From positions 118,028 to 182,027 of the forward strand of contig CAUYUJ010019341.1 of the NCBI GenBank assembly GCA_963575745.1: a stretch of DNA of 64,000 nucleotides, in the 5' to 3' direction. Origin of the DNA: Prorocentrum cordatum. Its lineage: Eukaryota; Sar; Dinophyceae; Prorocentrales; Prorocentraceae. Positions 13,601 through 34,600 of this stretch are shown piece by piece. How positions within the stretch are numbered: position 1 is the stretch's first letter; each line of letters begins with the position of its first letter. The position numbers and the translations under genes are program-made. Under the pieces are notes generated by a model that made no database searches, was not told the DNA's origin, and was given only the letters and a program-made list of their open reading frames with translations.

Positions 13601-16600
13601 TGCAGGGACCGTCAGGAAACGATCCTGTGGGGGGCAGAAGATACGGATACCGCTGCTCCCGGACCTCTCCTGGGGTGCGCTCTGACCAAGACGTCGAGGA
13701 GGATCCTGCCTGGCGGCGAGGATGCTCCAGGACGAGTGGCGGCATCGGTCGCGCCGGCACCATCTGGGAACGCATGGGGATAGCCGAGCCCAGACATCCG
13801 GCTGCCCCAATCTTTTCGATGCGTGGGCCCCTGTTCAGACCACTTCCCTGGGCCCGGTTCTTCGTCCTGAGCCGCTCCTTGACGCTCCCGAGGCCCGGCG
13901 AGGGCCCCCGGCAGGCGAAACTGGCCTCAAACCGTCTGCTCCAACTTTCCTGGTGCGTCGGATCTCTGGGAGGTGGTCTGGGTCCCGCGAAGCCGAGTCT
14001 GACATCTCCCCAGCTGGGGCCTCGCCGAGAGGCCGCGGAGGCGGCGGGCCGCCTCGCCGCCCTCCGGGCCGGGCGCGCCGTGCCGCTGCTCGCCGGCAGC
14101 CCGCTGGAGGCGGGGCGCTTTTTCGAAGGCGCGGAGCCCTCGCGAGGCCTCCCGAGGGGGCGCCCCCCCCTCCTCCTCCTCCTCCTCCTCCTCCTCCTCC
14201 TCCTCGCTCTCCTCCTTCCTCCCTCCTCTCCTCTCCTACTCCTACTCCTCCTACTCCTACTCACTCCTCCTACTCTCCTCCTACTCCCTCCTCCTCCTCC
14301 TCCTCCCTTTCCTCTCCTCCCTCCCCTCCTCCTCCTCCTCCTCATCTCCTCCTCCTCCTCCTCCTCCTCCTCCTCCTCCTCCCCCCGCGGCTCCCTGCAC
14401 CGCCCCCCCTGTGCCACGGGCGGTTCGGTACCAATTCATGGGAACCTTGTATACCCTCTTACATAGTTCCGTCTTTAGCGTCGATCAGCGTCGATTCGCG
14501 TCTGGAGTCGAGGAGGTAGCTCCGATGTAGCATCGGCTAGCTTCGGTTCGCTTCGATCTAGCGTCGATTCGCGTCGGTTTAGCGTCGATCCGCAAGAGCC
14601 GACGAGATGGTCCGTGGGGCTCCCATGAGTTGCCACCGAAGAGGGGGCGCCGAGGTGGCCAGGGGGCCGTCGCTCGTCTCGTGTGCCCCTTCCTCGGCTC
14701 CTGGAGGTCCTTCTTGGTCTCGGGGTCGAGGGCTGTGATGTCCCAGAGCTCCGGCGCTCCCCAAAATTATAGCGGGCTGTTTTGTTGGCTGTTTTCGGCC
14801 CCGTGGGGGCCCTCGCCGGGCCTCGGGAGCCTTACCAAAAAACGACGCAGGACGAAGAACTGGCCCTGGGGAAGTGGTCCCGACCTCCAGGGCCCACGCA
14901 TCGAAAAAGTTGGAGCAACCGGCTGTTTGGGATGTTCCAAGCTACAATAGCCTTGATCACCAGAAAGATCGGGGGTGGACAGAACCTCCAACAGTGACAC
15001 GTCGATTAGTGAATTGTTCGTTTCGGCTCTCGAGAGGGCGCCGTGGCCGTTATTTTCCAGTCTTGCGCCCGCCAGGTTTGGGCCTCAGGTCGTTTTCACT
15101 GAACCACGTGTTACTAAAGGGGTGTGTGTCCATCCCTGGAACAAAAATTCGAGTACCAAGGCAAGTGCCGAGCGAAATTGGAGGGTTCTCGCGTGTCGGG
15201 CGCGCCCTGGAGGCGATGTTCGTGTCGGGCACTGCGCTGGCGCGTCGAGCATACACTGTCTTGATACTTTGCTGAGTGCTCGAAACTAGTTCTGGGATGT
15301 GGTCCTTACCCAGACCCCCGACGTCATGATTTTTCATAACGTCGACCCTCAGAGGTCTCGGCCCATTCCCCGGGAACGGTTTCTCATCCCGAATCGGTTT
15401 TCGACGGTCCCGAGGGCCGGTGAGGGCCTCCAGGGGCAGAGACTACGGAGAAACCTCCCGTCATGTTCTTTTCATTGCCCGAGGGGGGGTCTGGGTAAGT
15501 GCGATGGGAACATCATCATACATCGAGGTTCGAGGTTGCGGGTTGTCGGGCGTTTCGTCGGTTCTCGGCGGCCTTCCAGCCTCTGGGTGCCCTCTGGCAG
15601 CGCTGCGCCTCGTCGCAGAGCGCTCTCCGGGGGTGCCCGCACGTCCCGAGCGGTCGCCGGAGGCCCGAGCTGGGGCCCAAGAGGGCAGGAGCCCTGCAGG
15701 ACAGGAGAGGGCTCCCAGGCACAGACGTGATCGCGTCGTAACGAAGATCATGACGGGAGGTTTTTCCGTACTCTCGGCCCCTGGAGGCCCTCACCGGCCC
15801 TCGGGACCGTCAGAAAACGACTCAGGATGGAAAACTGGCCCCGGGGAAAGGGCCGAGACCTCTGAGGGTCGACGTTACAATGAAAAATCATGACCTCGCG
15901 GGTCCGGGGTCAGGGCCGCCCGCCGCCGGACCCCCTGGCCCAACGAGGCCGCGGAGGCCAGGACCAGCGAGCTTCCTAGGTCGACTGCCTCCCAGGCCGC
16001 CCGAGCCTGATCTGCCTTGGCGACTTGCGTGGAACTCCTAATCCCCTCTGTTTCCGCTGGACGCCCGAACAACGCCATGCCCGTGGTTGTCGTTCTGGGC
16101 CGGGGGGGGATATCGACCACCTCTTCCTCCTCTTCCTCTTCCTCTTCCTCGTCTCCTCGTCCTCCTCTCCTCCTCTCCTCGTGCTCCTCTTCCTCTTCTC
16201 TCCTCTCCTCGTCCTCCACTTTTTTCTCTTCTCTCCTCGTCCTTATTCTCATTTCCTCGTCCTCCTCTCCTCGTCCTCCTCTCCTCCTCTTCCTCCTCTC
16301 CTCGTCCTTCTCTTTTCATTCCATGTACCTTCCCCCCCCGCGCACCTCTTCCCTCCCCTACCCCCCTCTCGTGTAATTGCCCTCCCCCCTTCTAAAAAAA
16401 GGGGCTGAATTTGCGAAATGATTGCCAGGGGGGAGAAAGAAGCATTCGAATTTGGATCGTGTCTGGAACCGCCGTCGCAATCGTCACCCGTTAATTCATA
16501 TGTCTTTTGGGCTCAGAGCAGGGCAGAAGGTCGTATCTCCGTGGTAACGGCGTCTGCAGAGTTGGTGGCGGGTTGGGGGGGGACCTTTGGTAACAGGGGT

Positions 16601-31600: not shown

Positions 31601-34600
31601 GCAGCTACTGTCTGAAAGTGGGCGCGCGTAGGGAACATTGCGCGCGATGGACTTTCATTCCTGTCTTCGATGCGGCCTCGCCCGCGGTGGCGGCGATCTT
31701 GGACAGCGCGAGGAATGGCAAGGACATGTTCCCGTGCAGAATGGACTCCTTCACGGGCGTGGACTTGGCCTGCAACCCCGCTTTCGAATCAGAGGCCTGT
31801 TTTGTTCGACAAGTTCGACCCCAACCGTCAGTTTTTTTTGTTTTTGTTCAGACGTGGGGCGCACATGCCCTTGATGATTTACGTGGGCAGGCCTGGTGAC
31901 GTCGGGGTGCATGCGCTGACGGGCGCGGTTGGACCTGGGAAAAGAGGCGGTCCACGATTCCTGGTGGAAAGGGGAAGCAGAAAAGGTGAGGGCGCCCACA
32001 GCCGCGGCGGCGGCGAGCCGCCCGGCGATCGCGGCAAAGGTGGAAATTGGGGCGCGCGAGGGGGAGTAAGAGGCGCGGGGGAGAGGTTCGCGTTTCGCGC
32101 CTTGCCCGCGGTGGCGGCGAACAGCCTGAATTTCAGACGCCGCGGTCTCATTGCGTTGAGAAAAAATACATAGAGGGTATGGGGCGGCGGGCGGGCCAGA
32201 ACAACAACGACTGGCAGGGCAGTCGTTGCCACCCAGGAGCGGCCTAGTTTAATTCTACTTCCTTGTTTCATTCAGTTCGCCAAATCAGATTAATTCGAGG
32301 AGGGGGCACGGGTTCCACGTGTGTTTTCTCCATGCTCCCCGACGCCCCACGTTTCCCCCCCACTGGGAGTGGAGGGCCACTTGGGGCCTTCGTGTTGGGT
32401 TTGGGTGTTGTGGTGGGTGGTGGACAAGCAGGTCACCCAGGTGGACCGTGCCGTGCTCCAGGCCTCCTCGCCTCGGGGCCCGACGCCTTCGGCCCCCCGT
32501 CTCTGGCGCCGCCCCGCTCCCGGTCTTTTCCCGCCCGCCTCCCGCCGCGGAGGGCCCGGACCTCCGGCGCCGCCATGGCTTCGTTGGGCGAACGCGCTCC
32601 ACGATTCGCCAAGGATTTACTCGCGAGTGACCTGTGGATCCACCGCGAATGATTTACGATCAATTCAGTCGAGGCGAGGAGGATGAGGAGGAGGACGAGG
32701 AGGAGGAGGAGGAGGCGGAGGAGGAGGAGGAGGAGGAGGAAGAGGAGGAGGAGGAGGAGGAGGAGGAGGAAGAGGAGGAAGAGGGTGAGGAGGAGGAGAG
32801 GAGGAAGAGGAGGAGGAAAAGGAGGAAGAGGAGGAGGAAAAGGAGGAAGAGGAGGAGGAGGAGGAGGAAGAGGAGGAGGAGGAGGAAGAAACATAGTCAG
32901 AATAAGTACCCATACCGCTATCCTTCGTCCGTTGTCCATTTTTTCGGCCTCCTTGGAGGCCCGAGCCGCCACCGCTGGATTCGCTTCGGAATTCTTGTCA
33001 GAATGCAGCCCAGGAGAGTTCTGGGGAATATCGGTATCGGTACCGTTTGGTTTCCCCAGTGCCGCACGTGACAGGGCCGAAGGGGTCGCGATGTCAATCG
33101 CTGTGGTTGGGTAGAGTGGTGTTGCACAAACGTGGGCGGCTTCATGTTCTGGTGGAAAGCTGGACCCATAACTCCGCTGTCGTGATGTCGTCACAACGTG
33201 GCCCCCAGGAGGTCTGGACCCTGGACCCCATTCCCGGTGCCGGCTTTTCATCCCGAATCCTTTGTTGACGGTCCCTAGGCTTGGCGAGGGCCCCTGGGGG
33301 CCGAAGATTGCCAAACACATTCCGTCGCGGCTGCGCTGCAGCACGTGGGTGGCAGGGCCCCTCGCGAGGAGCCGTTTTTGTGTGGGTGGTGCCGGCTTGG
33401 CTTCGCCTTGATTTGCGCATGATTTGTTGTTGTTTCTTTTTTTCTTTGCTCGACGATGACCAGCGAGGAGCAGCTTGGATCATTTAGCAGAACGTGCAGG
33501 CACGCGCGAAGCCGACAGATGCACCGGGAATGGGCGTCCGAGCGATGGCAAGTCGGGGCTTCTTCCAGAGCGGAGCAGGTGGCCGTCGACCCCGTCGCGG
33601 CGAGGCAGGCGGCGCTGTGCCAGAGGCAGCTGGCGCATGACCCCGAGCGCCGGGTGGCCGGGCAGGCCTCTGTGCTGGTCCGCCGGGGCAGCCCACTTCG
33701 GGGTGCTGCTGGAGGCTTGGCATCGCTCGCACGTGTGCCTTTTCTCTCGGCGAGGACCATCGAGGAGGATCCTGGATCATCTGGAAAAAAACACGCGCGA
33801 GGCCAAACAACGCACGGGGAATGGACGTCCGAGCGATTGCAAGGAGGTGGCCCAGCCCCCACCTCCTCGCGTCGTGAAGAAGGCGCGACGGGCAGGGGAG
33901 GAGGAGGAGGAGGAGGAGGAGGAGGAGGAGGAGGAGGAGGAGGAGGAGGAGGAGGAGGAGGAGGAGGAGGAGGAGGAGGATAGGGAGGAGGAGGAGGAGG
34001 AGGAGGAGGAGGAGGAGGAGGAGGAGGAGGAGGAGGAGGAGGAGGAGGAGGAGGAGGAGGAGGAGGAGGAGGAGGAGGAGGAGGAGGGAGGAGGAGGAGG
34101 AGGAGGAGGAGGAGGAGGAGGAGGAGGAGGAGGAGGAGGAGGAGGAGGAGGGGAGGAGGAGGAGGAGGAGGAGGAGGAGGAGGAGGAGGAGGAGGAGGAG
34201 GAGGAGGAGGAGGAGGAGGAGGAGGAGGAGGAGGAGGAAGGAGGAGGAGGAGGAGGAGGAGGAGGAGGAGGAGGAGAGGAGGAGGAGGAGGAGGAGGAGG
34301 AGGAGGAGGAGGAGGAGGAGGAGGGGAGGAGGAGGAGGAGGAGGAGGAGGAGGAGGAGGAGCAGTAGGAGGAGGAGAAGGAGGCGGGGGAGGAGGAGGAG
34401 GAGGAGGAGGAGGAGGAGGAGGAGGAGGAGGAGGAGGAGGAGGAGGAGGAGATTGTGTTAGACTGTGCTACTTAGGACTCACGCAGATGGAAAACACCAC
34501 GCCAGACGCCTTCGCCGTGCAAGTCTGAACTTACAAGGGCTTCCCTGTTGACGGATGGCGGCCCTCCCACAAACGCGTCAGTCGACCCTTGGCCGTCCGA

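Follow-up and report, generated by a model that had tools for sequence, protein, structure and literature searches.

A sense-oriented family of 14-nucleotide hairpins in a long protein-like block of the dinoflagellate Prorocentrum cordatum

We describe a family of very small hairpins in a 64-kb stretch of DNA (hereafter, the window) from the dinoflagellate Prorocentrum cordatum, where the copies crowd one block at 16400-32300. The unit is a 14-nt hairpin: a 5-bp stem closed by the loop GGTN, usually with G as the next base and thus 15 nt long when this G is included. The copies keep to one strand; this bias is the strongest feature of the family and was absent from an earlier note on the same DNA that had drawn attention to the palindromes. 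We tentatively favor an in-gene insertion family, sense-oriented and set in a long orphan, now decayed coding block, whose copies are related by copying. Below, we present the evidence from counts, pairing, reading frames, and homologues, and weigh this reading against its rivals.

Enrichment was measured with the 12-nt core of the hairpin, CCGCGGTNGCGG. The block was compared with a background of about 290 kb (580,782 strand-bases), consisting of the other 48 kb of the window and 242 kb in 32 stretches of the same assembly; statements on genome-wide absence are based on these 290 kb out of 4.15 Gb. The exact core occurs 17 times on the plus strand of the window, with starts from 17043 to 32106, and 0 times on the minus strand. 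When up to one mismatch is allowed, the block holds 32 matches on the plus strand and 1 on the minus strand. Markov null models of the block give a mean of 0.03-0.05 exact cores at orders 1-4 and 1.2 at order 5; with up to one mismatch, the means are 0.75-2.65 at orders 1-4 and 6.9 at order 5, where the maximum is 14. The palindrome TCCGCGGTNGCGGA, with up to two mismatches, returns 35 rows in the window versus 3.6 +/- 1.9 in shuffles, in a listing where a palindromic site may appear for both strands (5 block rows are minus); three rows, at 5770, 40991, and 59474, fall beyond the block. Among over-represented block words of 8-12 letters, with low complexity excluded, the core or its parts rank first at each length, and the remaining words belong to a 41-nt tandem array, to CAG repeats, or to more parts of the core. 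The earlier note had placed a family of 14-bp palindromes at 16.5-32.1 kb, and these exact-core and palindrome counts establish it as real. Its remark that the window elsewhere has at most one partial match does not hold, since the remainder contains 6 core matches with up to one mismatch.

A relaxed pattern, CCG[CT]GGT.[GA]CGG, sharpens the picture: 22 matches on the plus strand of the block, 0 on its minus strand, 0 in the remaining 48 kb of the window, and 0 in the 242 kb from the 32 other stretches. Core matches with up to one mismatch number 22 in about 240 kb elsewhere, on both strands, or approximately 0.7 per block-sized strand. The genome is described in the excerpted genome report as holding 85,849 gene models with a mean coding sequence of 2,798 bp in 4.15 Gb (PMC10666404). 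If all coding sequence matched the density of the block, about 23 relaxed copies would be expected in the 290 kb (some 17 kb of coding sequence, from published gene numbers); 0 were observed. On these 290 kb, the family is likely not a general feature of P. cordatum genes. An even spread over GC-rich DNA, which the earlier note had named as grounds for abandoning its proposal, was not seen there either.

Because the core was itself the search key, the base pair directly outside it is the fair test of pairing. In 32 copies this outermost pair is T-A (12), C-G (8), G-C (4), T.G (2), or unpaired (6), so that 24 of the 32 are Watson-Crick versus a mean of 11.5 when the right-hand bases are shuffled (0 of 20,000 shuffles as high). 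When clusters are reduced to one copy the pair is Watson-Crick in 18 of 26 (P = 0.0001). One of the 32, with a G-C pair, is a look-alike from an alanine repeat (32001-32014) and was dropped from the frame, flank, and loop counts. The next three pairs outward show no covariation in the 32 copies, and pairing therefore stops at 14 nt. A whole-stem covariation score of 0.314 versus 0.200 in shuffles (0 of 500 as high) was obtained on an alignment of 36 sequences, 29 of them distinct: 33 family copies, the degenerate copy at 16538, and two GGTN hairpins with other stems. This score leans to structure, given that the inner pairs are in the search key and that 3 of the 36 rows were chosen for pairing or likeness. 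Thus, of the compensated arms proposed in the earlier note, the outermost pair is borne out, whereas the covariation of the inner pairs counts for little. RNA folding of six family sequences gives a 5-bp stem and a 4-nt loop at -6.8 to -9.3 kcal/mol. The flanks are dissimilar among copies except at the two adjoining positions: of 31 copies, 26 are followed directly by G, while 16 are preceded by A and 1 by T. Three intervals between copies measure exactly 30 nt (within 23134-23177 and 24709-24782), and the intervening sequence is unlike. The stems hardly vary (CCGC/GCGG), a sign of common descent; the palindromic unit recurs in many seemingly related copies, and on the sense strand both its pairing and its loop are kept.

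Reading frames were called for 33 copies with a codon table from segments judged coding, applied to the flanks only, and a margin of at least 7 was taken as confident. Frame b reads the unit as TCC GCG GTN GCG GAG (SAVAE-like), and frame a gives TRGGG-like residues. Confident calls were obtained for 19 of the 33 copies: 12 in frame b, 5 in frame a, and 2 in frame c; overall, b is the best frame in 18 of 33. Removing training segments within 130 nt of a copy, which nine copies had within reach, again yields 12/5/2. With homologue-matched training only, the calls are b 11, a 5, and c 4 of 20, and some copies switch frame. Frame a is fixed independently by homologues at 17042 and 29082. As copies occur in all three frames, the family is not simply a peptide repeat; the one reading frame for all copies that such a repeat would have was not found.

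Two homologous proteins, P0001 and P0003, are encoded on short ENA contigs, the longest of 948 and 730 nt, and match the plus strand of the window at 68% identity over 113 residues and at 61%, respectively. At 17042, P0001 has GTRGGGAERAKC and the window VTRGGGAERAKC; at 29082, P0003 has THGGGASMIC and the window ARGGGASMIC. At 2 of the 2 sites that can be tested with homologues, these alignments indicate that the hairpin residues, and probably the hairpins themselves, are old, which suggests that the family is old. A further site differs: P0003 contains DSAVAEIAQ, and the window, aligned by eye across a frameshift, is without such a segment between DEIG and AQTSEKRAAG. P0003 is about 11 residues longer here, SAVAE included, at 29386-29418, where the window is frameshifted and the gap judged by eye is not 15 nt. 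On the question of in-frame insertion in genes, the homologues offer two shared sites and one site that differs, where the indel has a different size.

Any account has to meet four facts together: near-identical stems, one strand, three frames, and a complementary change of the closing pair. In the account that we favor, a 15-nt unit would have been inserted into coding sequence and retained where the frame was kept, tolerated as SAVAE-, TRGGG-, or PRWR-like residues. The restriction of the hairpin to the sense strand suggests that it spread or was selected at the RNA level, rather than as strand-blind DNA, and the family would then be a eukaryotic, much smaller counterpart of the palindromic elements that bacteria carry as in-frame insertions in genes. 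A more specific version is doubtful: a sense-only nuclear hairpin, 14-15 nt long, that acts at the RNA level to place copies of itself, or its spliced ends, in coding sequence and adds pentapeptides in any frame. To our knowledge, it would be the smallest repeated insertion known from the nuclear genome of a eukaryote. Strand-blind DNA mobility does not account for the single orientation. Since a peptide motif fails as well, what remains is a hairpin spreading or kept at the RNA level, or the residue of spliced introners. The very small mobile hairpin suggested in the earlier note is compatible with the unit of 14 nt plus G, the preference for a preceding A, the unrelated flanks, and the three frames, but neither an empty site nor a target duplication is visible. 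Its other suggestion, a target of DNA modification, is disfavored, as such a site has no evident reason for one orientation relative to coding. In the literature, mainly openly accessible papers, we found no such element for a dinoflagellate nuclear genome. Ranked together, the insertion family comes first, an array of RNA-binding sites second, and introner scars are level with a peptide motif.

Several observations weigh against insertion. First, P0001 and P0003 are known as protein alone, with the DNA motif unseen. Second, no pair of empty and occupied sites was found, the gap opposite the extra SAVAE segment of P0003 being, by eye, about 11 residues and not 15 nt, and no target-site duplication, as would mark DNA transposons or miniature inverted-repeat transposable elements (MITEs), was found; the best of 210 registers reaches z = 2.5. 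Third, some features are those of a peptide: frame b is over-represented (a binomial estimate for 12 of 19 versus one third is about 0.01), and 7 of the 10 spacings of up to 110 nt between neighbors are multiples of 3 (16 of 32 overall), as a peptide motif would give. Moreover, synonymous differences among some frame-b copies change the loop (20221, 24769) or disrupt a pair (20317); what was kept may therefore be the coding and not the hairpin. Fourth, two copies with N = A would carry a stop inside the hairpin in frame c, which is the best frame at 24166 (margin 4.3, or 12.6 with the homologue-only table) and is weakly called at 23798 (margin 1.6). Finally, the double-core pattern was met in 27 stretches of viral contigs. 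In 12 of these contigs (L023, L025, L027, L030-L033, L035, L040, L041, L046, and L049) one near-identical GGN-rich stretch has two copies of CCGCGGTNGCGG 31 nt apart, and GC-rich sequence can therefore hold the 12-mer without any element. This shared viral stretch seems unrelated to the family.

The strongest rival, which we nonetheless consider unlikely, is a functional array: one long transcript with about 30 GGUN-loop hairpins as putative protein-binding sites for processing, localization, or packaging, selected in the sense RNA. The excess of the sense strand (32 versus 1), which is compatible with the RNA signal proposed in the earlier note, fits it, as do the covarying stem and the tolerance of G.U pairs. 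The loop, part of the search key, retains GGT in 27 of the 33 family copies, the fourth base being free, but the first G is lost in four copies and the T in two. GGTN-loop hairpins with any 5-bp stem number 23 on the plus strand of the block and 1 on its minus strand; the background has 53 over about 481 kb of strand. Other stems account for 5 of the 23, yet this is a modest excess over the approximately 1.7 expected. Two further points stand against an array: the stems are too alike for convergence under pairing selection alone, and the block looks at least partly pseudogene.

Introner scars are a less probable explanation. Here, transposon-born introns would leave both matched ends in the spliced mRNA, the block would be a retroposed intron-free copy, and the joined ends would form the 14-nt palindromes, whose halves an intron would separate elsewhere. 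This would explain the sense-only orientation, any frame, a 15-nt unit, matched ends in sub-families, and absence from ordinary DNA. It is attractive because, in the excerpts consulted, introners with inverted repeats are enriched among the introns of P. cordatum (PMC10666404) and those of Aureococcus lengthen the transcript by 12 bp (PMC9860276). Searches for orphan half-sites and split halves in the 290 kb gave no clear support. GTNGCGG[AGC]G is preceded by AG in just 2 of 47 cases, and splice-like split halves are not in clear excess, the split pairs totaling 310 versus 73-468 in 20 scrambled controls. One of nine cut points is raised (after position 4, 6 versus 1.7), with 3 of the 6 in one kind of tandem repeat; the cut after position 9 gives 318 versus 233, but that half is no more than GCGG and two further bases, and AGG is frequent in any case. 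In addition, there is no target duplication, and retroposition of the block is only assumed.

We hold a peptide motif to be equally improbable. A short peptide such as SAVAE would recur in a disordered protein, and its GC-rich codons would mimic a palindrome. The prevalence of frame b, where N is the third base of a valine codon, the three 30-nt intervals, the short spacings, and some synonymous differences all agree with it; however, frames a and c are used for this DNA as well, homologues back frame a at two sites, and no peptide rule predicts covariation of base 1 and base 14 as T-A, C-G, and G-C. An artefact of assembly, vector, or composition might be suspected from a block GC of 57-69% and from CCGCGGTGGCGG, presumably part of a common cloning-vector polylinker, but is barely credible given the unrelated flanks, four different N among copies, residues kept by homologues in other records, and only 0.03-1.2 exact copies in the Markov controls.

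The consequences differ with the reading. If inserted and not selected in place, the hairpin would be a nuclear element scarcely above restriction-site length that spreads in genes on one strand, and a source of new short peptides in P. cordatum proteins. An RNA-binding array would amount to a cis-signal, in a group where gene control is thought to be largely post-transcriptional. As an introner scar, the hairpin would let past introner insertions be counted in mRNAs.

Table 1. Hairpin copies and related features of the block, in window coordinates.
Position	Strand	Feature	Sequence	Remark
16400..32300	+	hairpin-bearing block		orphan, protein-like; frameshifted vs homologue
16538..16551	+	degenerate copy	TCCGTGGTAACGGC	
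16854..16867	+	copy	CCCGTGGTGGCGGG	frame c by codon context
17042..17055	+	copy	CCCGCGGTGGCGGG	frame a, TRGGG; residues kept in P0001
17730..17743	+	copy	TCCACGGTCGCGGA	frame c by codon context
18336..18349	+	related GGTN-loop hairpin, different stem	TCCGTGGTCATGGA	
19401..19414	+	copy	TCCGCGGTGGCGGA	
19437..19450	+	copy	TCCGAGGTAGCGGA	
20039..20052	+	copy	TCCGCGGTCGCGGA	
20221..20234	+	copy	TCCGCCGTCGCGGA	frame b, SAVAE
20317..20330	+	degenerate copy	TCTGCGGTAGCTGA	frame b, SAVAE
20395..20408	+	copy	TCCGCGGTAGCGGA	frame b, SAVAE
20699..20712	+	copy	TCCGCGGTGGCGGA	frame b, SAVAE
21179..21192	+	copy	CCCGCGGTCGCGGA	frame a; unconfirmed by homologue-only codon table
21577..21590	+	copy	TCCGCGGTGGCGGA	frame b, SAVAE
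22204..22217	+	copy	CCCGCGGTGGCGTG	
22231..22244	+	copy	CCCGCGGTGGCGGG	
23134..23147	+	copy	GCCGCGGTGGCGGC	frame b, AAVAA; weak a with homologue-only table
23164..23177	+	copy	GCCGCGGTGGCGGC	30 nt past 23134 copy; frame b; weak a with homologue-only table
23757..23770	+	copy	CTCGCGGTCGCGGG	frame a
23798..23811	+	copy	TCCGCGGTAGCGGA	
24065..24078	+	copy	TCCGCGGTCGCGGA	
24166..24179	+	copy	TCCGCGGTAGCGGT	best frame c, giving internal stop
24709..24722	+	degenerate copy	TCCACGGCGGCGGA	
24739..24752	+	copy	CCCGCTGTTGCGGA	30 nt past 24709 copy; frame b
24769..24782	+	copy	TCCGCAGTCGCGGA	30 nt past 24739 copy
25557..25570	+	related GGTN-loop hairpin, different stem	TCCATGGTGATGGA	
25872..25885	+	copy	TCCGCAGTGGCGGG	
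26598..26611	+	copy	CCCGCGGTTGCGGG	frame b, PAVAG
27859..27872	+	copy	TCCGCGGCAGCGGG	frame b
29082..29095	+	copy	CCCGCGGTGGTGGG	frame a, ARGGG; P0003 has THGGG there
30030..30043	+	copy	GCCGTGGTGGCGGC	frame b
30407..30420	+	copy	TCCGCGGTGGCGGT	
30447..30460	+	copy	TCCGTGGTGGCGGA	
31102..31115	+	copy	CCCGTGGTAGCGGG	frame a, TRGSG
31681..31694	+	copy	CCCGCGGTGGCGGC	frame b, PAVAA
32105..32118	+	copy	CCCGCGGTGGCGGC	

The block itself resembles little else that was searched. Relative to P0001, its frame changes within 500 nt and stops are met on reading onward; barring an assembly error at that point, the block is therefore a pseudogene in part at least. BLASTN matches it neither to the remaining window nor to the 32 other assembly stretches; its two flanks have 227 matches to the latter. 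Codon-usage coverage is 0.66 on the plus and 0.48 on the minus strand, and other loci average 0.48 on their better strand and reach 0.85; since this measure fails to separate the block from other DNA, its description as coding rests on the two homologues and on reading. Pfam returned nothing above cut-off for the three plus frames of 16401-33402, where the best sub-threshold match is Nop14 (22.7 bits, cut-off 34.9) on a GAG repeat after the block, or for 30 single proteins (23 block open reading frames, 5 outside, P0001, and P0003). Rfam at gathering scores gave 0 matches, and a tblastx self-comparison of the block gave short or array matches only, with no repeated domain. A third protein search, with 31243-31896, listed 1048 candidates, none at E 0.01. 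No match was found in the viral contigs with A2, 27172-28425, and 18841-19191, in genome contigs with A1, or in phage records with P0003; P0003 and 30951-31244 reached E 0.14 or worse against PDB sequences. The predicted structure of P0001 has a pLDDT (predicted local distance difference test) of 34 and was not used. Three candidates were set aside: the viral contig L022 as a relative of P0001, false as judged by eye from its other reading frames; the endonuclease-like words GDFN and NVHLN, read by eye near 31150-31300 and confirmed by no search; and a spliced-leader relic at 30782, whose score of 15/21 equals that of shuffled sequence. The 41-nt tandem array lies at 24409-24600 in 4.7 copies, and its unit holds the inverted repeat CGATGTCAG...CTGACATCG.

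Elsewhere in the window, 6134-6114 on the minus strand is a perfect match to what we take to be the 21-nt dinoflagellate spliced leader, which upholds the dinoflagellate origin implied in the earlier note. It lies within a dispersed repeat of about 130 nt that is also present in two other loci, L001 and L013. We infer that the window is P. cordatum nuclear DNA. Two adjoining tandem duplications measure 993 nt (48710-50691) and 356 nt (50688-51395), each at 99.2% identity. For strain CCMP1329, the genome report, as excerpted, gives a GC of 59.7% and gene models of which about half have no known function (PMC10666404). The hairpins share traits with four known systems and depart from each.

Rickettsia palindromic elements (RPE) are short palindromes that interrupt protein-coding genes without shifting the frame, the extra peptide being tolerated; they are about 100-150 bp long, bacterial, and genome-wide. 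The likeness lies in many palindromic copies within protein-like sequence, whereas the hairpin here is 14-15 nt long, nuclear, on one strand, and in one block, with pairing that ends at 14 nt. Introners of dinoflagellates and Aureococcus are described, in the portions of the reports consulted, as having terminal inverted repeats and as able to add codons to mRNA, and those of Amoebophrya as having repeats of 8-20 nt inside the intron (PMC7789003, PMC9860276, PMC11453091, PMC10666404). Inverted-repeat ends are common to both, and introners are enriched in the introns of P. cordatum; unlike these spliced introns, the unit here is a contiguous 14 nt alone, with no intron seen and no split-half excess in the 290 kb. 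GC-rich palindromes of Volvox organelles (PMC2670323) and hairpin elements of sponges (PMC2800124) likewise consist of many small palindromes or hairpins, but they are organellar; the present family, compared with them by their excerpted descriptions, is nuclear, in coding-like sequence, and on one strand. Repetitive extragenic palindromic (REP) elements, as excerpted from PMC3733652, are also small palindromes in many copies, and where these are prokaryotic, extragenic, and 20-40 bp long, the hairpins of P. cordatum are nuclear, lie in coding-like sequence, and measure 14-15 nt.

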